A stretch of DNA of 37,251 nt from Patescibacteria group bacterium (GTDB taxonomy: Bacteria; Patescibacteriota; Minisyncoccia; Minisyncoccales; JANBVM01): NCBI GenBank assembly GCA_024239015.1, contig JANBVM010000006.1:1-37251 (forward strand), in the 5' to 3' direction. Below the pieces are notes generated by a model. That model was given only the letters and a program-made list of their open reading frames with translations. It was not told the DNA's origin and made no database searches. Below, piece by piece: positions 1 to 24,430 of this stretch (the first letter of the stretch is position 1; each line of letters begins with the position of its first letter). A program made the translations under genes and the position numbers.

Positions 1-1
1 A

Positions 2-85
2 AAATTCGATCAAGATGAATTTTCTAGTTTTTTACTACGACAAAAAGAGAGAGGTTCATTCTTTATTCCGACTAAAAAAGAATAG
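2..85 (+). CDS. 3' end of a CDS truncated by the window edge (...KFDQDEFSSFLLRQKERGSFFIPTKKE*)
   Basis: Open frame from base 2 to TAG at 83-85 with plausible composition; only 27 codons visible. Confidence 0.35.
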   Translation, partial: KFDQDEFSSFLLRQKERGSFFIPTKKE

Positions 86-290
86 TTGAAAAGATCTGAT
101 TTTTACTATCGGTGTTATTTTTTGCAAAATTAAAAAATCGAGATCTTATGATTAGCTTATTCAGAAGCAGATATTGATATTTGTAATCAAAATTGAGAAA
201 AATTTTTTAGAGAAAATTATTTTAGTCGTCTATCGATAATTTTGGACATTATAATGTCGCAAGTTATCTCGATTTTCCAGGTTTGTAGAA

Positions 291-350
291 ATCGATTTTA
301 TCTTGTAAAAATGCGATTTATCTTGTAAAAGTTCAATTTATCTTGTATTA
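291..350. repeat. Left 20-bp repeat array, about 3 units of nnncgattta tcttgtaaaa
   Basis: atcgattttatcttgtaaaa / atgcgatttatcttgtaaaa / gttcaatttatcttgtatta read directly. Confidence 0.92.
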
Positions 351-437
351 AGAGTTCCAACCCACTCTCCACCAATGACATCGTTTCCTTATTTTGAGCC
401 TATAAGCTTACTTCTCTATAATAATAATAAATAAATT

Positions 438-455
438 AAAAAAAAAAAAAAAAAA
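438..455. repeat. A18 homopolymer in an AT-rich segment between the two arrays
   Basis: aaattaaaaaaaaaaaaaaaaaatataatataac read directly. Confidence 0.9.
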
Positions 456-620
456 TATAATATAACAAGAAAAGAAACGTTATAATCTCAATATAGGTTT
501 TTTTGAAATTTTTGCTGATTATTTTTTTCCCACTTAGGTCCCTAAGATTTCTTCTCACCAAAAACAGCAAATAAAAAACTGAAGTCTTTATGAAGTGAAA
601 AGGGTAAAGCAGTAGTCACA

Positions 621-730
621 ATACAAGATAAATCGCATTTTTACAAGATAAATCGCATTTTTACAAGATAAATCGCATTTTTACAAGGTAAATCGCATTT
701 TTACAAGGTAAAATCAAGTTTTACAGGATG
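621..730. repeat. Right 20-bp tandem repeat array, about 5.5 units of ttacaagata aatcgcattt, inverted relative to 291-350
   Basis: Consecutive units ataCAAGATAAATCGCATTT, ttacaagataaatcgcattt x2, ttacaaggtaaatcgcattt, ttacaaggtaaaatcaagtt, ttacaggatg. Confidence 0.95.
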
Positions 731-765
731 ATTTTGAGCTCTTAGGGTTGAACTGAACTAAAATG

Positions 766-832
766 ATTAACCAATAATCTCTGGAAAATAGGATAAGATG
801 ATGTTCACTCCCTATTTTAAATAATGGTTAAT
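766..832. promoter_or_regulatory. Nested dyad: ATTAACCA...TGGTTAAT enclosing AAAATAGG...CCTATTTT
   Basis: 766-773 pairs with 825-832 and 785-792 pairs with 811-818, both perfect 8-bp arms; lies just past the stop of the 913-1524 gene. Confidence 0.55.
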
Positions 833-912
833 AATATAATTCTTTATGATTCGAAAATCTAGATTAAGCATAATTAAAAATCAAAAAATTTTAAAAAACC
901 AAAAAAGTTTAC

Positions 913-1524
913 TCACTTTTGTGATGTCTTAGCTATTTTTAGATTGAAAGGAAAAAGCTTATTTTTATAACCAATCCACTTTCCTTGAAACTCAGGACAC
1001 TCTAATACTAATTCACTACTATGAAACGAGACTTGTTTGCTCCCAAGCTGGAAGTAATAAATATAATAATGAAATGACTGCTGCGGATCCTCTTGCCATC
1101 CATATGAAAATACTTTTCTCTCAATCTTATTTGCGATTTTTAAAGCCAATTCTAAAAATCCTTGCTTATCATTATACGCTTTTTGAATCGCTGAATACAT
1201 CCTATTTTCTTTAGCCCTGTTGTTGCGCTGAAATATATATTTTAAAATTTGTATCAATTGTGTCAGGGGATCTTTTCGATAAAATCGCGCTCTTTTTTCA
1301 AGGATTTTTTTCTTAAAATCTGCTCTTAATCGATTAAAATCATTCTCTAAAATCAGATAAGAATCTACATTCCGATATTTCCCATGCCATTTATAATTTA
1401 TATCCAGGATAAGATCTTTTTTTTTTGCTTGTTTTATAATTTGGCTGCTAAATTGATTAGGATAAAAATAATAAATGAAACCTACTTTCTTATAGTTTAA
1501 TTTCTGCTTTAAAAGAAATTTCAT
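913..1524 (-). CDS. Hypothetical basic protein, 203 aa
   Basis: ORF; no recognised domain. Confidence 0.7.
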   Translation of the reverse strand: MKFLLKQKLNYKKVGFIYYFYPNQFSSQIIKQAKKKDLILDINYKWHGKYRNVDSYLILENDFNRLRADFKKKILEKRARFYRKDPLTQLIQILKYIFQRNNRAKENRMYSAIQKAYNDKQGFLELALKIANKIERKVFSYGWQEDPQQSFHYYIYYFQLGSKQVSFHSSELVLECPEFQGKWIGYKNKLFPFNLKIAKTSQK

Positions 1525-2611: not shown

Positions 2612-3418
2612 TTAACGGGGAATTTTAAATAAACAATATATCTTTTTTTTCCTGTTAAGCTTTAGACAATCTATGCATTCATTGCTTGAATAACCACAGA
2701 AACTATATGGGGCTACTGGTTCCGCTCGAAATCCTATTTCTGAACTATGAATAATTTCACCATGACCATGTATATGAGAATAATAAAATAAACCGTTTAA
2801 TGGGAGATTCTCTAAAATCTCATTCTTTGCGCGCGTCCAGTATAAGCCAGTACAAAAAGAATAGGCAAAAAGTATCTTATCTTTATGCATAAATTTGATA
2901 ATATCCCTCCTGGATTTGATTTTTTCTATATCAAATCGTAATTCCTTATCGATTCGTGCTATAGGGTTTCTTGTTCCATATTTTTTTAAAAAATAGTCTG
3001 AATTCCCCTTTAAAAAATAATAATTACCAATCTTCCTAAATTCGTTAATGATTAATTCAAAAGCAGTTTTAAGGTATTTGGTTGTTATAATTAGATTGAT
3101 ATCATCAACATGCTTTTTAAATTGATAATAATTCCTAATTTTAAAAATTTTATTTTCAAAATGTCCAATCACTTCTATTATAAAATAAGTTTCATCATTT
3201 TCAATTAGAACATCCTTTACGATAAAAGGAGTACGGAGCATACGCCAATACATTTTTATTTCTCCCTTATTATTATATGCACTCCGAATTAGCCCATAAT
3301 CCCCCATTTCAAAAAAATGATTATGCCTTTTATTACTCTTCCAGAGAATTCTAATATTTGTATTGTTTATTTTCGATTCTCTAAAGCTTTTTAACTTTTG
3401 AATCATTTCAGCATCCAA
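2612..3418 (-). CDS. Hypothetical protein with C-terminal Cys cluster
   Basis: ORF; no recognised domain. Confidence 0.65.
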   Translation of the reverse strand: MDAEMIQKLKSFRESKINNTNIRILWKSNKRHNHFFEMGDYGLIRSAYNNKGEIKMYWRMLRTPFIVKDVLIENDETYFIIEVIGHFENKIFKIRNYYQFKKHVDDINLIITTKYLKTAFELIINEFRKIGNYYFLKGNSDYFLKKYGTRNPIARIDKELRFDIEKIKSRRDIIKFMHKDKILFAYSFCTGLYWTRAKNEILENLPLNGLFYYSHIHGHGEIIHSSEIGFRAEPVAPYSFCGYSSNECIDCLKLNRKKKIYCLFKIPR

Positions 3419-3503: not shown

Positions 3504-5924
3504 TTAAATCTTGGATTTTGAGGTTGATATTTTCAGTTTATTCCCTTCTTTGACAAAAGTCCCTTCTTTTATAAGGTCTCTAATTTGCTTTTCTATTAAT
3601 TCTTGAGTGAAGTTAAGATTTGTTTCTAATATTTGTATTATGCTGTCGTAGTCAAGAGCCTTTCTCTTATTATCCTTGAAAATTTCAGTTAATTTCTCAT
3701 TGATCTGATTAGAAACCCATTTTTCTTTAAGAAAATAAGTTGTTTTATTTTTCATAATATCAATGATATAACCCTGTCTATGAATAAAATCAATGTTTTG
3801 AGGATCTTCAAATAAAGCTTTATATTTAGTATTGGATTTATTGTTCTCCTTTCCAACGTAATCATATAACTTATATGGTTCAAGAGCTTCCTCTGGTGTT
3901 AGGGGAAAATAATGATTTCTAAGATATTCTTTTATAAAACGGACATGTTCCGAAATTGATATAAAATTATGTAATTCTGTAAGCATTTTAAAGCTAAGTT
4001 GGAAAATTTCATTAATGTTAATTATTCTTTCATCAGTTATAGCTATATTTTCATGAAAAGGTATAATTGTGTGTATTAAATGCTTTTTCAAAAATTCTAA
4101 ATCCCTTTCGTCAACAGTATCCTTTAGCTTTAATGCAGATATGGCCTTAATTATTTTTAGTAAAACAGCAAATTCTCTGGGTGTATTTATTTTTTTCACA
4201 TCTTTTAAATCTGTTATCGTATCATCAAGTTTCTCTACAATCTCAATCATTTTTTTTGGGAGTTTTATCCCTTCTGAATATAATCGTTTACTTTCAATAA
4301 GATAATTGAAGATATATTCATTAGAAACATCTTGGATGGGCGGCTTAAATAATCGTCTTCTAAGCGTTTTTTTGATTCTTTTTGATAATTTAGGAATTGC
4401 ATAATGCAAATCAAATCTATCTAAGATAGACTCTTGACCTTCTGGTAGACCAAGATTTTCATATAGTGGTTTACCATAATCATAAGCTTCCTTCTGCTCT
4501 TTATTTCCTTTATAATTCATTAACATTAATATAGCCGTTTCTGCAGGCGCATTTATGATCGTGCCATCCAAAGCTCTTGTAATTTTGCCAACTTCAAGAC
4601 ATTTCATTGATTCTAAAGAAGCTTCTTCTAAATATTGTGCTTCATCAATTACTAATAGTTTTCTTGAATAATAGGGGATTGCTCCTAATCGTTTTACTAA
4701 GTTTTTCTGATCACTAACTCGTTGTGATGTAGGAATTAAACCTTTGTTGGTAGTATCTTTCCCGCTTATTATTCCTACATTACTAATCCCTAAGATTTCT
4801 TGTAATGATTCTGCAATTGACGATTTAAACAAACCTCTATGCCCTCCAATTATCGAGTTTAACGTATTTCGCTTAGTTCCTCCATGCCTAAATGAGTCAC
4901 TCGTTATCCAGGCCAATACCATAATAATTTTTTCAATATAATACTCGTATATCTCTTTTGAATACGAGTGTATTGAATGGATTATTTTATCCTGATAATC
5001 AGGATCGTCATCAAAACGCTTATATATCGTTTTTAAGATATCCTTATCTAATTTTTTACTTTCCAACATTTTAATATCTAACACCTCAACATAATCAATA
5101 ATTTCATGATTATCTTTTTTTGAATCCAAATCGGAATAATCCAACTGGATGACACCAAGGATCTCAACTTCATCATTCGGGTTGAGTTCCTTAACTTTTT
5201 CATAGAAGTAGTCATAATTTTTCAAAGTATAACATACTTTCTCCCTTTCGGGGTTATTTTGATCCAGATCTCCAGCAACAAAATATCCGGCTTCAAACTT
5301 TTCCACTTGTTCTTTAATTAATTGAAAGTCTGAAGTTCCCTTTGCTTTACAGCTTCTTTTATTACAGAATTTAGGTTTTCTATATCTCCCCCGAAGCTTT
5401 GTTTCTTGGAGTATTTCAACATCCGCTCCGCACAATAAACACCTATAAGTGAGTTTAGTAGCAATATATTTTTTATGGAGTCCAAAATCCAAGAACCTGC
5501 ATCTTAAACGAACTAATTTCCCAATATAATCAACAAGACTTTTAGAGAATTCTGTAATCTCAGGTATAATCTCTTCGAATTCTGAAATATCTGGTATAAG
5601 AAGGATACCTTTAAATTGCTCCTTTTCTATTATTGTTTTAATCTCTTGATTAAACTTTAATTCTTCAATAATAATCTCATTTAATTCTTCACTGCATTTC
5701 TGAGTATTTTTACGATAATAATCAAATAACTCATCATCCTTGAAGTTCTTTAATAATATTCGTAAAATTGGGTAAGATTCACCCTTTAAAATCTGATTTT
5801 TTAAATTCTCAATGTATTCAGGACATTCAATTTTAAAATGAACTTTCATTATTTCAAATCGATTAAAATCAAACCCATTAGGATTTTCAGCTTCCTTATT
5901 CTTACTTTCTACTATTTTACTCAC
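3504..5924 (-). CDS. MCM-like AAA+ replicative helicase, divergent, element-encoded
   Basis: Zn finger CLLCGAD..FCNKRSCKAKG; MCM-type Walker A GGHRGLFKSS; Walker B LLVIDEAQYLE; sensor region AILMLMNYKGN; arginine-finger motif ILDRFDLHYAI; C-terminal helical region. Confidence 0.85.
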   Translation of the reverse strand: MSKIVESKNKEAENPNGFDFNRFEIMKVHFKIECPEYIENLKNQILKGESYPILRILLKNFKDDELFDYYRKNTQKCSEELNEIIIEELKFNQEIKTIIEKEQFKGILLIPDISEFEEIIPEITEFSKSLVDYIGKLVRLRCRFLDFGLHKKYIATKLTYRCLLCGADVEILQETKLRGRYRKPKFCNKRSCKAKGTSDFQLIKEQVEKFEAGYFVAGDLDQNNPEREKVCYTLKNYDYFYEKVKELNPNDEVEILGVIQLDYSDLDSKKDNHEIIDYVEVLDIKMLESKKLDKDILKTIYKRFDDDPDYQDKIIHSIHSYSKEIYEYYIEKIIMVLAWITSDSFRHGGTKRNTLNSIIGGHRGLFKSSIAESLQEILGISNVGIISGKDTTNKGLIPTSQRVSDQKNLVKRLGAIPYYSRKLLVIDEAQYLEEASLESMKCLEVGKITRALDGTIINAPAETAILMLMNYKGNKEQKEAYDYGKPLYENLGLPEGQESILDRFDLHYAIPKLSKRIKKTLRRRLFKPPIQDVSNEYIFNYLIESKRLYSEGIKLPKKMIEIVEKLDDTITDLKDVKKINTPREFAVLLKIIKAISALKLKDTVDERDLEFLKKHLIHTIIPFHENIAITDERIININEIFQLSFKMLTELHNFISISEHVRFIKEYLRNHYFPLTPEEALEPYKLYDYVGKENNKSNTKYKALFEDPQNIDFIHRQGYIIDIMKNKTTYFLKEKWVSNQINEKLTEIFKDNKRKALDYDSIIQILETNLNFTQELIEKQIRDLIKEGTFVKEGNKLKISTSKSKI

Positions 5925-7488: not shown

Positions 7489-8052
7489 TTATTCTGTATA
7501 TCTTTTATGGTCTTCGTATTTCTGTCCTCTTATATGTTTATGTTTACATATTGGACAAAAGTAAGGACCTGTTATTTTCTTTGGTGGTTTGTTCCTTATC
7601 TCAAGATTGTTTATGTATTTTTCCAGTTCTTTAACTCTATTCTTTTCTATTAAACCTCTTTCATCCATATCATTCATTATACCTCTGAAGGTTTCAATAC
7701 TACGTTTTTTTTGTTCATAAGTTAATTCTTTACATCCAAGTGTAGCTGAAAAATAAATTCCCATAGCATCACTGTCAGAAAGATCCAATACTTTACACAT
7801 GATTGTTTCGTGACCTAAGATTTGTTTGGCTTTAAGTCTTCTATAACCTTTTACGAGAAGATATTTATTTCCATCATTATTTATTCTAACAATAATAGGA
7901 AGTATCAATCCTACAGTATGAATAGATTCTAACAGTTCTGTGTCTTTTTTATTATAATTCCATCTATTTAGATAACGATCCTGGAACAATTCGTCTAATT
8001 CAATATCTTTAATAGGTATTTCTTTTATTTCTATCATTTCAGTCAACCTCAA
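7489..8052 (-). CDS. ParB-like domain protein with C-terminal zinc finger
   Basis: TVGLILPIIVRINNDGNKYLLVKGYRRLKAKQILGHETIMCKV matches ParB/Srx-type pattern; C-terminal CPICKHKHIRGQKYEDHKRYTE. Confidence 0.8.
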   Translation of the reverse strand: MRLTEMIEIKEIPIKDIELDELFQDRYLNRWNYNKKDTELLESIHTVGLILPIIVRINNDGNKYLLVKGYRRLKAKQILGHETIMCKVLDLSDSDAMGIYFSATLGCKELTYEQKKRSIETFRGIMNDMDERGLIEKNRVKELEKYINNLEIRNKPPKKITGPYFCPICKHKHIRGQKYEDHKRYTE

Positions 8053-8782
8053 AAAATCCTTTTATTGTTTTTTGGTTAAATCTTTTATCTATATCTTGTT
8101 TATAAATTGGTTTATTCTCATATCCTAACCATTTAATACCCAAGATATCTGCTGCTTTTAGGAATGAACCAGAACCCGCAAAAGGATCGGTTAATGATTC
8201 TGGTTTCAGTTGTTTTAAAACCTCTAATGCTACAGTTATTCCTTTAGGAGAAGGATGTATAAAGTGTTTTTCTTTACTGCAGAATCCCCACTCAAGTGTA
8301 AATGGTTCAATAAAATGACTTTCTTTCGAATATAACCGTTTAGCGATATAATCATATTTGAGCTTTTTTCCTTTTTCAAATTTACCATAAAATAAATAAG
8401 TAGACTTTCTGCTTTGATTAGCAATTTTACTTCCAGAAAAACCATTCTTCCATAGAACAGGCGCGTCTCCCGTTGGTTCTGTATTCCTAATCCACCAATA
8501 TTTACTACTTTCAGGAATTACTAATACAATTTTTACACATACTCTTTCAAGTTGATAAAACCAATTCAGTGTCCATTCTTCAAAATTATCGATTTTGTCA
8601 TTAAAAAATACTTTATTTTTGTCATTATCTAATTCTCTGTTATGAAATTTTCTAATATTAGGTTTCATATCAGAATTCCAAACTGGATCAGTATATCCTA
8701 ACTCGATGGATTTATCCGGTAATGATGGTAATCCTATTTTTGAATCCATGCAATCAACATAAAAAACTTCGTTCCAATCCAT
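8039..8782 (-). CDS. DNA methyltransferase-like protein with degenerate catalytic motif (DPVW)
   Basis: LGYTDPVW plus LTDPFAGSGSFLKAADILG. Confidence 0.75.
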   Translation of the reverse strand: MDWNEVFYVDCMDSKIGLPSLPDKSIELGYTDPVWNSDMKPNIRKFHNRELDNDKNKVFFNDKIDNFEEWTLNWFYQLERVCVKIVLVIPESSKYWWIRNTEPTGDAPVLWKNGFSGSKIANQSRKSTYLFYGKFEKGKKLKYDYIAKRLYSKESHFIEPFTLEWGFCSKEKHFIHPSPKGITVALEVLKQLKPESLTDPFAGSGSFLKAADILGIKWLGYENKPIYKQDIDKRFNQKTIKGFFEVD

Positions 8783-9639
8783 TATTTTAATCCTCTAATT
8801 CGCTTTTTACATAATTCAATAGCATTAGGATTTTTATCACAGGCAATAAAATTCCTCTTTGCCTTTTTAGCAGCGATAATAGTTGTACCTGAACCACAAA
8901 AAAAGTCTGCTACTATATCATCTTCATTGGAAGAAGCTAAAATTATCCTTTGGATTAAGCTTAAAGGTTTCTGAGTAGGATATTTAAAATATTCTTTTGC
9001 GTTCGTTCGAGTTTGAAACGATAGAACATCATTCCAGACACTTCCAATGGGTTTACCTTTACTTTCATCTAAATATTGTCGTCCATTCCTTCTTTTTCGA
9101 TAGATCCTTCCATCCTCATCCTTATACCTAAACATCTTTTCGATGTAATTTACCGAATAAGGAAGAAACAGCTTATTAAATGTAAAATTGTTTGATTTGG
9201 TATAATACAAAATAGTATCATGCTGTCGAATCCATCCATTAACCTTACTTTTGAATCCTGAAACAGATCCAGTGTTCCAAATAATTTCTCGACGAAAATT
9301 CTTTTTCCCAAATATATTGTCTAATAGTAGTTTAAGCTCAAATTTTGCATGTTTATCGCATTGGAGATAAAAACTTCCCGTATTTTTCAATATTCTATGT
9401 ATTTCTAAAATTCTTTCCCTCATATACCCAATATAACCACTTACCGATTCCCATTTATCTGAAAATTCAATATAATCTTCTTCAGTGCAATAAGGGGGAT
9501 CAATGTAAATTAAATCAATTACTCCTGTACTTAATCTTTTTAATAGATCTATATTTTCGCATAAATACACTTGATTTAAATTGTTGTTAAACCTCGAGAC
9601 ATTGCTAATGATCTCTTCATTTAATATTGTATTAATCAA
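8782..9639 (-). CDS. DNA (adenine-N6/cytosine-N4) methyltransferase
   Basis: DLIYIDPPYCTEEDYIEFSDKW and ADFFCGSGTTIIAAKKAKRNFIACD. Confidence 0.87.
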   Translation of the reverse strand: MINTILNEEIISNVSRFNNNLNQVYLCENIDLLKRLSTGVIDLIYIDPPYCTEEDYIEFSDKWESVSGYIGYMRERILEIHRILKNTGSFYLQCDKHAKFELKLLLDNIFGKKNFRREIIWNTGSVSGFKSKVNGWIRQHDTILYYTKSNNFTFNKLFLPYSVNYIEKMFRYKDEDGRIYRKRRNGRQYLDESKGKPIGSVWNDVLSFQTRTNAKEYFKYPTQKPLSLIQRIILASSNEDDIVADFFCGSGTTIIAAKKAKRNFIACDKNPNAIELCKKRIRGLK

Positions 9640-10589: not shown

Positions 10590-10880
10590 TCAATATTCAA
10601 GTCTCTTGACTATTTTATATGTTTTGAACTCTCGAACCGGTTCATTATTCTCATCCATTTTTGTAATAGGTACACGTACATGGGTCTTATCGTCGAATTC
10701 CTCAACCTTTACGTCTTTAAATTTAATCATCTCATTGACCATTTTTAACTCTTTTATCAAGAATTCGCGAACGGCACAACGAATTAATTCAGAGCGCGAC
10801 GGATATAATCCACCTTCACCAACTAATCTCTTAATACTGTCGAGATAAGATTCTGGGACGTTAACAGTAACAATTTTCAA
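10590..10880 (-). CDS. Ribbon-helix-helix (CopG/NikR-N-like) regulator
   Basis: MKIVTVNVPESYLDSIKRLVGEGGLYPSRSELIRCAVREFLIKEL. Confidence 0.85.
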   Translation of the reverse strand: MKIVTVNVPESYLDSIKRLVGEGGLYPSRSELIRCAVREFLIKELKMVNEMIKFKDVKVEEFDDKTHVRVPITKMDENNEPVREFKTYKIVKRLEY

Positions 10881-10895
10881 ATTTTCACCTCATTT

Positions 10896-11105
10896 TTAAT
10901 TAAAATAACCTAAAACTTTCAGATTTTTGTATTCAGAATGTAAAAACTCCCGTATGGCTATTCTTATAGCCTCAGAGCGACTTGGAACTATTTTTCTCTT
11001 AATAAGCTTTTGAATATTCTCATCGTAGAGTTCGGGGAGATTGATTGTAATATTTTTCATCTTAGATTTTTTTGATTTACCCTTTTCTTCGCTTTTTGAG
11101 CCCAT
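10896..11105 (-). CDS. Ribbon-helix-helix regulator
   Basis: MKNITINLPELYDENIQKLIKRKIVPSRSEAIRIAIREFLHSE. Confidence 0.83.
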   Translation of the reverse strand: MGSKSEEKGKSKKSKMKNITINLPELYDENIQKLIKRKIVPSRSEAIRIAIREFLHSEYKNLKVLGYFN

Positions 11106-13195: not shown

Positions 13196-14965
13196 TCATA
13201 ATCCTTTTAATGTTTCTTTAATACTTTCTTTAAAATTTGTTAGGTTTGTCTCAACTTCATTATATTCTTCGCTCTCTTCAATTTTTAATTCAATTGAATC
13301 ATTTATTTTATTGATAAAATTTCTCAAAAAGCGTTGCTTTTTATCTCTTATTCCCCGCAGTTCTTTAGATTGTTCAGATATATAATTCTTGACTTTTTTA
13401 AGAGATTTGTCATATTCCTCGTTATCCTTGACCATTTCTCCTTTATGGTTTTCAAGAATCTTCATTTTCCTTTTTGTAGAAGCTTTTAAGTGTTTTTCAG
13501 CTGCTTCCATGACATCAGAGACGAAATCTCTCCAAAAATCTTCATCATCATATTCTTCTAAATATTCGTCAATTTTGTTCGAAAGTAAATTTATGATCTC
13601 TTCTCTCATTGATTCAATTAAACTTGGTTTAGCATCTACAATATTAGGTTCTGATATATCATCCCAAGTATATTCACCCCATTTTGGAGTACCAAATCGA
13701 TTCAAGTCAAATATTCGCTCATCATTTTCTAAAAGATACTCTATGTATTCCGCATAATCTCTTGCGGGATTTTGGGTCATATCTTCCTCAATTCGATAAC
13801 CAGTAAGAGATTGTAATTCTAATCTTCTTTTTGAACAAGCATTAATCCAACTCTCTAAATCTGCTTTTTCTTTCACATCGATTAGGTTTTTATCAAAAAT
13901 CTCTTGGATCATTGACATCGCACCTTTAATTTGGAATAGTTTTGCTTCTCCTGATTTTCCTTTGTATTCCTGCAATAGAGAATTAGTGTCGATCCCGACT
14001 CTCTCCAATAGGTGTGGATTTAATCCCACACTTTCACAGTGGAAATATCTTTTCATATCTAAATAGATTTTAATCCCATCAACATCAAAATCATGCAAAA
14101 CAAATACGAAAAACTTATCTGAAATCTCCTTTTTATATTCCATCAGAATACGGATTACTGCTGTGGAAGCATACCCTTGAGTACCCATTCCCAACCAACC
14201 ATACCTATATCCATCTTCTCGTAATTTCCGCATTGTTGATTTTAACACTTCTTCTTTTTCGCATATGATAAATCCAAATGGAGTTTCATTAATAATTTCA
14301 TAAAAATCATTTTTTTCATTATTAAACCATCTCTTTGTTATTGTTTCGGAATCCACCAAATAGGATTTACCCTCGATGGTAAACGCTACAGTCCGCGCTT
14401 TCGATTTAATTTTCAACTCATCCTGAACATAACCCCAATATGGGGCCTTAAAATATTTTTTTACTTTTTGGCAAAAACTTTTAACTGCACCATCGAAACT
14501 TATTTGTTGTTGTAGAGGATCTCCATTTAAGTCCATCTTGCCTTTCAATCTTTTATGAACTTGATACCATAAATCACGATTATCCGCGGGTGGCATTTTT
14601 AATTCTAATTGCTTTCTAACAAATCGCTCATTAAGGATGTTAAGAAGTTCTCGTCCCACGTTCTTTCGAGAACCATCTTTAACTAAATAAACTTCATTTT
14701 CATAGAATTGTTCAGGAATATTTTTGAGCCATCTCTCAGGTAAATCCTTAACCAGCACCCTTAAGAGATTTTTGTTAATTTCTGGTTTTTTTGCTAAATC
14801 ATTTTCTTTCTTTTTTCTTAATCTTCTCTCCCTAATCTTCTCTATTTTTTGTTCTAAGTCATAGCAGATCTTACATCTATGATGCTTAAATCCACTTTTT
14901 ACATAGGTACATTCTTCTTTAGCAACATCTCCACAAATATCACAATCTCGGTATTTTACACCCAT
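13196..14965 (-). CDS. TOPRIM-domain protein resembling TopoVI-A/Spo11-type TOPRIM, with N-terminal zinc finger
   Basis: CDICGDVAKEECTYVKSGFKHHRCKICYD; FIICEKEEVL and FVFVLHDFDVDGIKIYLDMKRY fit TOPRIM E and DxD motifs. Confidence 0.6.
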   Translation of the reverse strand: MGVKYRDCDICGDVAKEECTYVKSGFKHHRCKICYDLEQKIEKIRERRLRKKKENDLAKKPEINKNLLRVLVKDLPERWLKNIPEQFYENEVYLVKDGSRKNVGRELLNILNERFVRKQLELKMPPADNRDLWYQVHKRLKGKMDLNGDPLQQQISFDGAVKSFCQKVKKYFKAPYWGYVQDELKIKSKARTVAFTIEGKSYLVDSETITKRWFNNEKNDFYEIINETPFGFIICEKEEVLKSTMRKLREDGYRYGWLGMGTQGYASTAVIRILMEYKKEISDKFFVFVLHDFDVDGIKIYLDMKRYFHCESVGLNPHLLERVGIDTNSLLQEYKGKSGEAKLFQIKGAMSMIQEIFDKNLIDVKEKADLESWINACSKRRLELQSLTGYRIEEDMTQNPARDYAEYIEYLLENDERIFDLNRFGTPKWGEYTWDDISEPNIVDAKPSLIESMREEIINLLSNKIDEYLEEYDDEDFWRDFVSDVMEAAEKHLKASTKRKMKILENHKGEMVKDNEEYDKSLKKVKNYISEQSKELRGIRDKKQRFLRNFINKINDSIELKIEESEEYNEVETNLTNFKESIKETLKGL

Positions 14966-14979
14966 TTTTATTCACCCTA

Positions 14980-15492
14980 TTAGTTCAATAATTCATTCAT
15001 CCAATTATCAAAGATCGTAAACATTTTATGCTTTGTTGGCCATTTTCGCTTACTAAATGCAGAAGCAATAGAGGGACCTAAATCCTTCCAAGCTATTCTA
15101 ATATGCTCAGGTACCGTAATTTTATCTTTTTCAGTACTACTACTATGAATACTACTACTTCCTTGATCACCACTACTACTTGTAACACCTGAATTAAACT
15201 CTCTGTCTTCTGTTAAATCAACATCTTTCTCTTTTTCAGTACTACTACTATGAATACTACTACTTCCTTGATCACCACTACTACTGGCCATTGATTTTAC
15301 AATCTTCTGATTTCCTACTTTTTTAACAAGTAGTTGACCTTCTTTCGCCATTGGATTAATAATTTTCCCGATATTTGTCTTACTTAGTTCAAGCTCCTCA
15401 GCAATTGCACCATAAGTGAAATTTTTTGAAGAATTATCCCTTAACAATTCTAAAATCCGATCTTTAGCAGGTTTCTCTGACATTGAGCTCAT
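14980..15492 (-). CDS. Winged-helix-like protein with duplicated Ser-rich linker
   Basis: ILELLRDNSSKNFTYGAIAEELELSKTNIGKIINPMAKEGQLLVKKV; SSSGDQGSSSIHSSSTEK occurs twice. Confidence 0.65.
   Translation of the reverse strand: MSSMSEKPAKDRILELLRDNSSKNFTYGAIAEELELSKTNIGKIINPMAKEGQLLVKKVGNQKIVKSMASSSGDQGSSSIHSSSTEKEKDVDLTEDREFNSGVTSSSGDQGSSSIHSSSTEKDKITVPEHIRIAWKDLGPSIASAFSKRKWPTKHKMFTIFDNWMNELLN
15126..15180. repeat. 55-bp perfect direct repeat, copy 1
   Basis: ctttttcagtactactactatgaatactactacttccttgatcaccactactact. Confidence 0.95.
15231..15285. repeat. 55-bp perfect direct repeat, copy 2 (105-bp period)
   Basis: Same 55-nt string as 15126-15180. Confidence 0.95.
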
Positions 15493-16573: not shown

Positions 16574-16822
16574 CTATGAACTCTCCTCCGTAATGGTTTC
16601 TATTGGATTTTGATTCTCAGGATTTTTATCAGAATCATAGTTAACACTTAACATACCCAAGAAGTCAGATAATTTCATGTTTGAAGCAACTTTAAGGATC
16701 AGTCTGAGTACTTCAGAATTATTTTTTATACCTGTAGCTTTTTTTATTTTCAGAAATGCCTTATAAATTGGGTCATCAATCTTAAATGGTAATCTTAAAT
16801 CAATAGTCTCTTTGTTTGACAT
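16574..16822 (-). CDS. RHH-like regulator, first gene of the left operon
   Basis: IDLRLPFKIDDPIYKAFLKIKKATGIKNNSEVLRLILKVA. Confidence 0.65.
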   Translation of the reverse strand: MSNKETIDLRLPFKIDDPIYKAFLKIKKATGIKNNSEVLRLILKVASNMKLSDFLGMLSVNYDSDKNPENQNPIETITEESS

Positions 16823-16863
16823 TTTAAATCTCCCTTTTCATTCTTTTTTAGTTAATTATATTG

Positions 16864-16960
16864 TTTTTTATTCTTTTTTATTCGATAGTATACTATAAAT
16901 CTTTTTTATATTTATATGCTTGGATAAAATTGGATAAAAAAGAATAAAAAAGGATAAACC
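16864..16960. promoter_or_regulatory. Divergent promoter/operator: inverted 10-bp-phased repeats (GRATAAAAAA) flanking palindrome ATAGTATACTAT
   Basis: TTTTTTATTC x2 at 16864-16883, palindrome at 16885-16896, GGATAAAATT/GGATAAAAAA/GAATAAAAAA/GGATAAACC at 16922-16960. Confidence 0.75.
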
Positions 16961-16999: not shown

Positions 17000-17176
17000 A
17001 TGACTAAAAAAGAAGAGATGATACGTTTAGTTCTTAATCCTGACAATGATCAACCAATTTATGATTTCTTTATAGAAATCAAAAAGGCGTTAGGGTTAAA
17101 GGTTAATACAGAAGTAGCTAGATATTGCATTAAAAAGGCACATGAACTTATGTTTGAAAATAAAAAAGAAGATTAA
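17000..17176 (+). CDS. RHH-like small regulator, 58 aa: MTKKEEMIRLVLNPDNDQPIYDFFIEIKKALGLKVNTEVARYCIKKAHELMFENKKED
   Basis: Manual translation; not in ORF track; clear similarity to the divergent 16574-16822 product. Confidence 0.75.
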   Translation: MTKKEEMIRLVLNPDNDQPIYDFFIEIKKALGLKVNTEVARYCIKKAHELMFENKKED

Positions 17177-19828: not shown

Positions 19829-21496
19829 CTATATTTTAATTGGTTTTACAGGATAGGATAAATCAATGCTCTTAATTGAAAATATTTCTAGTATATTATC
19901 AAAAATCCCCAAATATGCATAAACTTCTTTTTTATGCCGTTCCTTCTGTTCACGGGCAAATTTTACTTCAGGATAATATTCTTCTCCAAGGATCGCATCA
20001 TAATGCTGTTTATCAACCTTAATATTTTTTAATGAAAAGACAAAAACTTTATTATTTTTGTAAGCAGCAACATCAAATTCTCCATGTGCGCCATTATTTT
20101 CTACTTTATCAAAAACCTCTAAGGATTGTAGATATTTAGTAAACGCATCTTCTAATAATCTTCCTTTAATCCTATTTACTTCACCTTGAACTTTTCTCAC
20201 TACTTCAGAAATACCTGTTTTACCCTTAATAGTCTTATAGGATTTAGCAATTTCATTATACAATAGTTTCTCCTTTGTTGCTTGTGAATAAATTTCAATA
20301 TCCCTTTCAACATTGCGCCAAACACCTTCCTTTTCTATTCTGATAAGATCATAAATATCAAGATCATCGAATCTGAAATCAAATTTAGTTAAATCTTTTT
20401 TAATATGTTGCTCTATTTCTATTTTAGCATGTTCTTTTCGTTTTTCTTCCATCTTTTTCTCATGGACCTTCTTTAATTCTTGCATTCTCTTCTTCCTACT
20501 TTCAATTCGCTTTCTCTTCCGTTTTACTTTGGACCAGGTTTTATTAATTAGCATAGGCATTGTACTTGAGTCCCACTTCACCATTTTATCTCTTTCAGTA
20601 TCAGGGTCAAATTTAGAATTGTATAAATAAATTTCAGGCTCAATCAAATTCTTTTGGTCAACTTTTTCTCTCATACACCATTTAAAAATAGAATTAATAT
20701 CACGTTTAAATCGTTCAAGGTCGATTTGAGCTGAATAATGGCCCCCATGCTTTATGCCATCAACTATGAAGCCATCTTTTCTTTTCTCATATAATTCTTT
20801 AAGCTTTGGATCTTCATCAATATCAAAATAAATCCTTCCAACGGGTTCTTTTCCATCTTTAAAAGAAGGATCATATAATAAACATCTAATTTGCCCAGTT
20901 TCTTTATTTTTACCGGCAGTCTCTAAGTAATATGTAACTAAAATACTGGTTAATTTTCTTGGCGCAATAAAGATAAATGAATTTAGGTGTTTTCTAATTA
21001 TATCAACGATGTTCCCTAAGTTTTCCTGCATGTTCCTTGTTCCTTTACCGTGCTCTTTAGGTGATTCATCGCGAATCATTACATCACCTATATTTAAAAG
21101 AGGTAATTTCATGTTAAATTCACTTGTAGTAAATGAATCTAATAACGCAATTTCCTTTTCCAAAATAATTTTATTCTGATCTATGATCTCATGACCAACT
21201 TTACGGCCAACTGTAGATTTACCAGAATTGGGTTCACCAAATATTATAAGAAGTAGATTAGTCTCATTTATGCTCCTTGTTATTATCGCGTTATGAAGAC
21301 TTTGAGTATAATTACAACTTTTAGAAAATATATGAATTAATTTTGGGTCGCTGTACTTATTATTGAAGGATTTTTCTTTTATCTCATCTTCAAGTCTAAA
21401 ATTCTTACAGAAATCATGAATTTTATACTTCTTTTTTTGCTCTGCTTTAAGATTTGCTTTCGCTCTTGATAATTTTTCTGTATAATCAACGGTCAT
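19829..21496 (-). CDS. P-loop ATPase with candidate C-terminal PD-(D/E)XK-like nuclease domain
   Basis: Walker A IFGEPNSGKSTVGRK; Walker B-like DVMIRDE; C-terminus KGRLLEDAFTKYLQ...GEFDVAAYKNNKVFVFSLKNIK. Confidence 0.6.
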   Translation of the reverse strand: MTVDYTEKLSRAKANLKAEQKKKYKIHDFCKNFRLEDEIKEKSFNNKYSDPKLIHIFSKSCNYTQSLHNAIITRSINETNLLLIIFGEPNSGKSTVGRKVGHEIIDQNKIILEKEIALLDSFTTSEFNMKLPLLNIGDVMIRDESPKEHGKGTRNMQENLGNIVDIIRKHLNSFIFIAPRKLTSILVTYYLETAGKNKETGQIRCLLYDPSFKDGKEPVGRIYFDIDEDPKLKELYEKRKDGFIVDGIKHGGHYSAQIDLERFKRDINSIFKWCMREKVDQKNLIEPEIYLYNSKFDPDTERDKMVKWDSSTMPMLINKTWSKVKRKRKRIESRKKRMQELKKVHEKKMEEKRKEHAKIEIEQHIKKDLTKFDFRFDDLDIYDLIRIEKEGVWRNVERDIEIYSQATKEKLLYNEIAKSYKTIKGKTGISEVVRKVQGEVNRIKGRLLEDAFTKYLQSLEVFDKVENNGAHGEFDVAAYKNNKVFVFSLKNIKVDKQHYDAILGEEYYPEVKFAREQKERHKKEVYAYLGIFDNILEIFSIKSIDLSYPVKPIKI

Positions 21497-21498
21497 TC

Positions 21499-21957
21499 TT
21501 AATCTAACTCAATATCTTCATCATTAGACTTATCATAATCTCTATAAGAAAGTTGAGCTTTATCTAAAATGTAGTCTTCACCCATTCCTTTTAACAGCAT
21601 TTTTTTCTTGGTTTGGTATGAATCTGCTTGATGAAATGTTAATGCCATCTTAAATGAACCCCATGTAAGATTTAACAATTGCCTGATCAATGCAGCACTC
21701 TGATGTGGTAGTTCACACCCTAATTCCACATCCAATAAATTTGAATAATATGTAAACATTGCATTTGCTACTGGATGACCTGTAGTATTCATTAATGCTC
21801 TTAACTGATGCATTCTCCCTTCTTGAGCTAACCCCTTAAAATCATCTTTAGATATTTTTTCTAACTGTGATTTAGTCAGCCTTTCTTCATCAATCGTTTT
21901 CATGGCCAGATTTAAACTGGCTATTGCTCGTTGATTATCTGATTCTTTTGTCATCAA
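21499..21957 (-). CDS. Hypothetical protein
   Basis: ORF overlapping upstream gene. Confidence 0.65.
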   Translation of the reverse strand: MMTKESDNQRAIASLNLAMKTIDEERLTKSQLEKISKDDFKGLAQEGRMHQLRALMNTTGHPVANAMFTYYSNLLDVELGCELPHQSAALIRQLLNLTWGSFKMALTFHQADSYQTKKKMLLKGMGEDYILDKAQLSYRDYDKSNDEDIELD

Positions 21958-22973
21958 AGCCCCCCAGACATTAATTTTAATATATTTGTTGAAGTGGATA
22001 AATTCTCAACAGACGTGGATCCTGTATTTATGGGTATAAAATTAAGAAAAAACCATGCAACAACAAGGGCAAGAACCGCAAAGAAGACAATTATTATTAT
22101 CGCGGTCCAATCTACGGAGACTTTCTTTTTCGAATATTCGCTTTCTTTAAGTCGTTTCTTGAATTCTTGTTCAAGATTATGCTGTCGTTCTGCTTGAATA
22201 TCTTTAGTTCTAACGATATATGCCGCTTTATACAATTCAGCTTTTTGAGCTGATTCATCAATTTGATCCTCTTTTAATTCTTTTTCTCCCATCAGGTGAT
22301 TGATCAATCGTTGCTGATCTTTTTTGATTGTTTGATCAATATTTTTAGCTTCGATCACTGCATTATACAAAAGATCGTAAGTACCAGGAGCATCTCGAAC
22401 TAAAATCACAAAACGACCATGTCTTGATTTTCCTAACATCATCATATTACAACGGCCCATCCTTACTCTGGTTGGATATCCATCCAATTTATGTTTATAA
22501 TTCTCAATCCAGTGGAGTGCATTTTCTAAATGTACCGGTGCTAAGAACTTTATTTCAGAAAATTTCTCTCCGGGAAAATTATCAAATTCTGTGGGATTAT
22601 CTAATACCACTATTGTTTCCTCATAACTATCTAAGATGATCCTCGGAACAACAGAATATATAGCAGGTTTTCTCTCTGTTCTGGAATAATAACAAGCTAA
22701 GTCTATTAAGTCTTTTTTATGCTCAATTAATTTCTCGAAATCATGATACATATCATTAATATAGCCAATGACTTGATACCTATTTTTCTCCAGTGCTTCC
22801 CTTAATTCTCTATGTTCAAATACGGTTGATAATTCCTTCGCTACTTCTTTAAGTCTCTCTCTAAATTGCTTCTTTTCCGTTGCTTTTTTCTCAAAATAAT
22901 TCTTAATTAAAATTCTTATCTTTTCCATCCTTACTTTTATTGGTTTCTTTTCCTTTATTGATTTTTTTTCCAT
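21954..22973 (-). CDS. C-terminally membrane-anchored hypothetical protein
   Basis: Charged coiled-coil-like body; TM VDWTAIIIIVFFAVLALVVAWFFLNF. Confidence 0.7.
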   Translation of the reverse strand: MEKKSIKEKKPIKVRMEKIRILIKNYFEKKATEKKQFRERLKEVAKELSTVFEHRELREALEKNRYQVIGYINDMYHDFEKLIEHKKDLIDLACYYSRTERKPAIYSVVPRIILDSYEETIVVLDNPTEFDNFPGEKFSEIKFLAPVHLENALHWIENYKHKLDGYPTRVRMGRCNMMMLGKSRHGRFVILVRDAPGTYDLLYNAVIEAKNIDQTIKKDQQRLINHLMGEKELKEDQIDESAQKAELYKAAYIVRTKDIQAERQHNLEQEFKKRLKESEYSKKKVSVDWTAIIIIVFFAVLALVVAWFFLNFIPINTGSTSVENLSTSTNILKLMSGGL

Positions 22974-23430
22974 TATCTTCAGCTAATAGTTCTTTTCTTT
23001 TTCCTTGATTTGTATGATCAGGAAGCCTTCCTTCAAGTTTAGCCTTCTCTAAAAGCGCCAGAAGTTCTTTTTTGTCTATTGCTGTGCTTTTTTTGGCTCT
23101 TTTAAATTTTTTAACCCTAAATTCGCAATCCTCCCCCATTTCAGGTCCTTGATCCATAGGTCCTTTTATAATGGAGGTGCCTGATCTTTTTTTTGCATGA
23201 CTATATAATGAATAAACGTACCCAATTGTATAGAGAAGTACATAATAAACTATCCCTTGTAGTAAATAACCTGTGGTCTGAGGATTCAGAATTGAAGTTG
23301 GATTTCCTTCGCTATCTGTGACTTTTAAATTTGTTAATACAAGTGCTACGATTAATAATGCCATTAAAGACCATGTTTGTATGTTTTCCCAGAGTTCCTG
23401 TCCTTTATACCATTTATTCCCAATTTTCAT
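22903..23430 (-). CDS. Membrane protein with basic tail
   Basis: Two hydrophobic segments then Lys-rich C-terminus. Confidence 0.65.
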   Translation of the reverse strand: MKIGNKWYKGQELWENIQTWSLMALLIVALVLTNLKVTDSEGNPTSILNPQTTGYLLQGIVYYVLLYTIGYVYSLYSHAKKRSGTSIIKGPMDQGPEMGEDCEFRVKKFKRAKKSTAIDKKELLALLEKAKLEGRLPDHTNQGKRKELLAEDNGKKINKGKETNKSKDGKDKNFN

Positions 23431-23646
23431 CTATAATTTACCTCTACGTTTAGATTTTCGAAATAGTAATGAGATGATTATTGCTATGGCCATCCCCGCA
23501 ATAGTCAATAGGAACATTTGATAATTAAAAAACTCATTCTCTTGAGGATAAGCAACATTTATTCTCGCAGAGATTACTGAAAGAATAATTCCAGTAAGTA
23601 ATGTTAACCCTATAAACAAACCAATTCTTTTTATTCTATTCTTCAA
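23431..23646 (-). CDS. Small two-TM protein
   Basis: Two hydrophobic segments in 71 aa. Confidence 0.65.
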   Translation of the reverse strand: MKNRIKRIGLFIGLTLLTGIILSVISARINVAYPQENEFFNYQMFLLTIAGMAIAIIISLLFRKSKRRGKL

Positions 23647-23670
23647 GTTTTACACCTTTAATATTATTCT

Positions 23671-24180
23671 TTATGTTTTTTTCCTTGATATAAATAAGAT
23701 TATAATTTTGACGATAAGATATGTGATCATTAATGATAAGAGGTTATTTTCTGAACTTGGAAATAAAAGTAATTGCAATAAGATTGTTGCTCCTATCATA
23801 AAAGTAATAGAGCTAAGGAGCATGGCTATAACCCAAGCACCATCCAATCGACTGAGTCCCTGATTTAATGATTCCCATCGTCTTACCTTACTTCCTTTTA
23901 TGACATATTTGAAAAATATTAGCTTTAAAAAGAGAAACGCAAGAACTCTTCCAGATACTGCAGCAAAAAGGGAAATAACAAAGACTAACCCTAATTTTTG
24001 GAGAAATTGTGCACCAACAATATTAAATAAACTAAATTCAGGGTATATTCTAAATAAATTTGTCAACCCAAAGAACAAAAACATTGAAATAATGTTATGA
24101 ATGATAAAATAGAAGTGTTTATCTCCTCTTGCATATCCTTCAGTATCTTGGCTTTCAGTCTTCATCCTTTTCACCCTCAC
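23671..24180 (-). CDS. Multi-TM membrane protein
   Basis: About four hydrophobic segments. Confidence 0.65.
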   Translation of the reverse strand: MRVKRMKTESQDTEGYARGDKHFYFIIHNIISMFLFFGLTNLFRIYPEFSLFNIVGAQFLQKLGLVFVISLFAAVSGRVLAFLFLKLIFFKYVIKGSKVRRWESLNQGLSRLDGAWVIAMLLSSITFMIGATILLQLLLFPSSENNLLSLMITYLIVKIIILFISRKKT

Positions 24181-24430
24181 TGTTTACAATTTTATTGATT
24201 TTCTTACGAAGCAATAGGTAAAAATATCCTGAAAGTGAGATTAAGATAAATATGAAAATCAAGCTAAATATCTCGCTGATCCTCCATATTGATTTATGAT
24301 CTATTACCCCGGGAAGTTGAATTAGTGTAATTAAATGTATTTGAACCCCAAAAATTAATATTGCTATTGACACTAATAATGGCCCATATATCCCTACTTT
24401 AAACCAAAATAATTTTCTCATTTCTTCCAT
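24155..24430 (-). CDS. Small two-TM protein
   Basis: Two hydrophobic segments. Confidence 0.6.
   Translation of the reverse strand: MEEMRKLFWFKVGIYGPLLVSIAILIFGVQIHLITLIQLPGVIDHKSIWRISEIFSLIFIFILISLSGYFYLLLRKKINKIVNSEGEKDED

Follow-up and report, generated by a model that had tools for sequence, protein, structure and literature searches.

Iteron origins of theta plasmids carry tandem units of about 20 bp by an AT-rich stretch, usually in one orientation and adjoining a rep gene. In Asgard-like archaea, mobile-element origins are poorly known. Among archaeal plasmids, the HMp plasmids of Methanoperedens combine repeats with a long intergenic AT-rich stretch at their predicted origin, with Orc1/Cdc6 there (PMC9674854). 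Here we describe a locus at the left end of contig JANBVM010000006.1, in which two oppositely oriented arrays of one 20-bp repeat flank an AT-rich core. The window, that is, the whole stretch of DNA that was analysed, is the complete 37,251-base contig (hereafter C6) of a 1.03-Mb, 58-contig bin. We give roughly even odds (about 0.5) that an archaeal plasmid or virus encoding its own MCM has its replication origin in this region. This reading is based on the mirror-image arrays, the least stable stretch lying between them, the kept core motif of the unit, the largest non-coding gap of the contig, and the MCM gene located about 2.8 kb away.

Inverted repeat arrays around an unstable core

Tandem Repeats Finder placed the right array at 622-712 (period 20, 4.6 copies, 98% matches) and the left array at 283-347 (period 20, 3.3 copies, 85% matches). 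Both arrays are built from one shared 20-bp unit in opposite orientation and face outward with their inner ends 270 bp apart, and the arms 283-349 and 620-686 are complementary at 88% over 67 ungapped bases, with a spacing of 270 bases. Read from the core outward, the right array consists of ATACAAGATAAATCGCATTT, TTACAAGATAAATCGCATTT (twice), TTACAAGGTAAATCGCATTT, and TTACAAGGTAAAATCAAGTT, followed by the decayed TTACAGGATGATTTTGAGCT, and the left array of ATACAAGATAAATTGAACTT, TTACAAGATAAATCGCATTT, and TTACAAGATAAAATCGATTT. The arrays were compared with 200 dinucleotide shuffles of positions 1-912. Over 60 bp, the lag-20 self-match was 59/60 (best shuffle, 39/60) and the inverted match was 53/60 (best shuffle, 43/60). 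The mirror-image arrays are far beyond chance, neither match being approached by the shuffles. RNA folding of the array region was also strong (z -8.1), for which the inverted arrays are a sufficient explanation.

The initial annotation had proposed oppositely oriented 20-bp arrays around an AT-rich core with an A18 run, and this was confirmed by Tandem Repeats Finder, the shuffles, and the stability scan described below. Its copy numbers (about 5.5 on the right and about 3 on the left, some 270 bp apart) agree with the five good units plus one decayed unit, the three units, and the 270 bp found here. The location it gave, 291-730, was slightly narrow, as the arrays span about 283-740. With 10.5 bp to the turn, the 20-bp period makes about 1.9 turns, so that its description at that time as roughly two helical turns was fair.

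Across nine aligned units, an 11-bp core, TACAAGRTAAA (unit positions 2-12), differed at 5 of 99 positions, with the A/G at unit position 8 accounting for two of the five. The remaining nine unit positions differed at 19 of 81 (Fisher p 3e-4), a value to be taken as indicative because the core was chosen post hoc from the alignment and the units are mutual copies. Conservation of 11 bp with drift in the other 9 is the pattern that a binding site would be expected to show. The AT-rich contigs of the bin (about 381 kb, C6 included) contain TACAAGRTAAA nine times, and eight of these occurrences lie within the arrays. Moreover, a search of the 1.03-Mb bin for the whole 20-bp unit, allowing up to 3 mismatches, gave no match outside the arrays; the scatter of arrays over many loci that had been named as an argument against an origin was thus not observed there.

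A nearest-neighbour stability scan of the whole 37-kb contig placed the least stable 40-bp window at 424 and the least stable 60-bp window at 417 (start positions), both between the arrays. At the 100-bp scale, the inter-array core was the second least stable in the contig, behind 35945. The A18 run inside this core is the only run of at least 11 A or T in the window.

If the region is an origin, a sequence-specific protein would flank the AT-rich core from either side, bound in phase to the unit cores along almost one face of the helix. Opening of the duplex would follow around 417-476, and the element's own MCM would be loaded there. Possible initiators encoded by the element are its small RHH or winged-helix DNA-binding proteins and the C-terminal portion of the MCM; a host protein is another candidate. 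The MCM-like helicase that the initial annotation had placed a few genes away was recovered as a divergent MCM-family protein, which is the only MCM of the bin and a candidate replicative helicase of the element.

A candidate replication origin weighed against its rivals

Several results weigh against a replication origin. No match to orc1/cdc6 was found in C6, so that none adjoins the arrays, with a gene beyond the left end being possible; this agrees with the earlier statement that no Orc1/Cdc6 is visible in the window. Zero matches to the origin recognition box (ORB) motif, searched as TCCAGTGGAAAYGAA at up to 3 mismatches, were obtained with this one consensus; ORB motifs are diverse. The open reading frames (ORFs) near the arrays (913-1524, 1538-2035, and 2612-3418) had no significant Pfam match and included no recognisable initiator, and structure models of the products of 913-1524 and 1538-2035 were too poor to use (predicted local distance difference test scores of 37 and 39, respectively). 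The contig ends show no terminal overlap that would indicate a circle, and the reading frame across a circular join is uninformative. Furthermore, the GC-skew check suggested by the initial annotation revealed no inflection. GC skew tracked gene orientation along the contig. At fourfold sites of minus-strand genes it was negative in both halves (-0.08 over 0-17 kb, -0.13 over 20-37 kb), with no sign change as for a bidirectional circle from about 450 and no replichore signal. Finally, searches of IMG/VR, GTDB contigs, phages, plasmids, and a set of genomes found no relative of the MCM or of the array; several of the scans detect close relatives only, and the genome searches covered the bacterial relatives of the bin. 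The search for the repeat in other contigs, likewise suggested at the outset, returned no second contig with the array or with the MCM.

The missing skew signal is compatible with an origin, as the element may replicate one way, be young, linear, or integrated. In addition, a non-Cdc6 initiator gene, whiP, is located at Sulfolobus oriC3, and a different initiator therefore has precedent (PMC4010727). Of the two functions first proposed, origin or partition site, the anatomy of an origin fits the locus, but neither skew nor relatives gave it support. At present, the locus is one well-formed origin candidate without a comparative partner. It is a rather unlikely further step that it represents a class of origins working independently of Orc1/Cdc6 in mobile elements of Asgard-type archaea, with 20-bp iterons, an undescribed initiator, and a highly divergent element-encoded MCM.

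The main rival, which we consider unlikely, is a partition site (centromere), at which one of the element's RHH proteins would bind the tandem units and form a segrosome moved by a motor protein. The ParR protein of pSK41 binds 20-bp repeats (PMC9426499) and the parC of R1 consists of two separate parts (PMC5016525), and the window encodes two clear RHH_1 proteins, a weak third, and a ParB_N-domain protein (7489-8052). However, no ParM, ParA, or TubZ-like motor was found among the ORFs searched in Pfam, and no par operon follows the arrays within the window, where the RHH genes (10590-11105) are about 10 kb off. Described parC repeats are direct, whereas the halves are inverted here, and a centromere needs no melting-prone core.

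It is quite improbable that the arrays are an operator, that is, transcription-factor sites of a repressor controlling a gene past the left contig end. Tandem dyad-containing sites are typical operators, and the left contig end sits 282 bp left of the left array, so that the start of a leftward gene could be near. On the other side, the gene right of the arrays (913-1524, minus strand) has its end rather than its start facing the right array, no ORF of at least 60 aa was listed on either strand in 1-290, and an operator built from eight good units in mirror-image blocks would be unusually elaborate.

Least probable of all is a functionless repeat, either a slippage-grown minisatellite that was partly inverted or a remnant resembling a miniature inverted-repeat transposable element with tandem subrepeats in its ends: the decayed outermost units and unequal copy numbers are as left by slippage, but slippage by itself would not yield mirror-image arrays, the unit has drifted mainly outside its core, a mobile family should have other copies and none were found in the bin (archaeal contigs searched), and the coincidence with the least stable stretch would be left unexplained.

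Source and gene content of the contig

The bin is mixed and mostly bacterial, with about 13 contigs at 27-31% GC without tRNAs and the rest at about 35% GC with tRNAs. Tetranucleotide use grouped C6 with 12 other AT-rich contigs, none of which carries a tRNA. The one clear Orc1/Cdc6 of the bin (256 bits, the only match above the cut-off) is encoded on one of the AT-rich contigs, C2, together with a TFIIB-like protein, two Ras/Arf-type GTPases, a roadblock protein, and a large ATPase with membrane segments. We infer from family matches, among them the divergent MCM and the TFIIB-like protein of C6, that C6 comes from an archaeon and was wrongly binned with a small bacterium. This source was probably Asgard-like, as suggested by the gene content of C2. 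A match to TTTTACAAGAT upstream of the C2 Orc1/Cdc6 gene was a lone site with no array and was discarded.

The ends of C6 have no 16-mer in common with the other contig ends of the bin that were searched. The outer 1500 bases of its two ends share no inverted 13-mer, and the true ends of the element are possibly elsewhere.

The coordinates of the main features are given in Table 1. The contig further encodes two N6/N4 methylase-like proteins, a DnaQ-like exonuclease, winged-helix proteins (one at 14980-15492), surface and other membrane-associated proteins, and, at its right end, a nitroreductase, besides weak matches to a TFIIB repeat (E 0.004) and to a DUF5131-like radical-SAM protein. No capsid or transfer gene was identified among its ORFs. 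This gene mixture points to a plasmid or virus. The RHH protein encoded at 10590-10880 is a possible repeat-binding protein.

Table 1. Features of the putative origin region and related genes of contig C6
Feature	Positions	Strand	Description	Evidence
Largest inter-ORF gap of the contig	1-912		Encloses the whole structure	Gap list over the chosen ORF set
Left iteron array	283-348	minus	3 units of 20 bp, reading outward from the core	Tandem Repeats Finder, inverted match, unit listing
Inter-array core	349-620		Site of the contig's least stable windows of 40 and 60 bp	Nearest-neighbour stability scan
A18 run	438-455	plus	Sole run of at least 16 A or T among the AT-rich bin contigs (369 kb)	
Right iteron array	621-740	plus	TTACAAGRTAAATCGCATTT in 5 good copies and 1 decayed copy, reading outward	Tandem Repeats Finder, unit listing
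Divergent MCM-family helicase	3504-5924	minus	806 aa	PF00493 MCM P-loop domain, E 1.8e-11
RHH (CopG-type) DNA-binding protein	10590-10880	minus		RHH_1, E 4.1e-8
Second RHH protein	10896-11105	minus	Paralogue of the 10590-10880 protein (48% over 46 aa)	RHH_1, E 3.1e-8

A search of 389 genomes from the phylum of the bin, with the bin among them, gave no other match to the MCM. The MCM, the ATPase-like, Toprim-like, and radical-SAM proteins, and the methylases had no relatives in viral contigs, and a scan of GTDB contigs with the nitroreductase gave one bacterial match (31%). Single 18-mer matches to the repeat in six IMG/VR contigs were judged to be chance, with no tandem array around them, and a two-core match (L032) comprised two short cores in a different setting, again with no array. 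Comparison of 250-760 with plasmids and phages gave weak short matches only, nearly all inside the AT-rich core.

Four other regions of the contig were noted. AT-rich 10-bp repeats form two inverted blocks (TTTTTATTCT and GGATAAAAAA) at 16835-16958, between two divergent small genes (16574-16822, with a weak RHH_1 match, and 17000-17176), and look like an operator. The 589-aa protein encoded at 13196-14965 has a weak JetD match (E 2.6e-4) and no PDB match, and its DFDVDGIKIY stretch resembles a Toprim motif. A methylase-like protein at 8039-8782, in which the DPPY-type motif apparently reads DPVW, adjoins a regular N6/N4 methylase at 8782-9639. The stretch 19829-24430 encodes a 555-aa protein with the Walker-A-like GEPNSGKST and, after it, a series of small membrane proteins; it gave no family match and is possibly a transfer or virion module.

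Comparison with described origins and partition sites

If the region is a true origin, the 20-bp unit would serve as bait for a new initiator and the 510-bp region would be a candidate replicator for vectors. Borg-like linear elements carry inverted terminal repeats, whereas the ends of the present contig share no such repeat in their outer 1500 bases. The parC sites of ParMRC systems resemble the arrays in their 20-bp units (pSK41) and split arrays (R1), and an RHH protein, the kind of adaptor used by these systems, is encoded by the element. In contrast to parC of pSK41 and R1, the halves of the locus are inverted, and no motor gene and no par operon downstream were found. Archaeal ORB/Orc1-Cdc6 origins have the MCM helicase in common with the element (PMC4010727), but the contig lacks both the ORB motif and orc1/cdc6, and its repeat has an 11-bp core that recurs in tandem at a strict period of 20 bp.

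The HMp plasmids of Methanoperedens have Orc1/Cdc6 at the site, which the present locus does not, but share with it the combination of repeats and an AT-rich intergenic region. Compared with the iteron origins of theta plasmids, the locus differs in having arrays in both orientations and in lacking a recognisable rep gene; like these origins, it has tandem, directly repeated units next to an AT-rich stretch, and the units fall in the size class of iteron-plasmid origins (about 17-22 bp).
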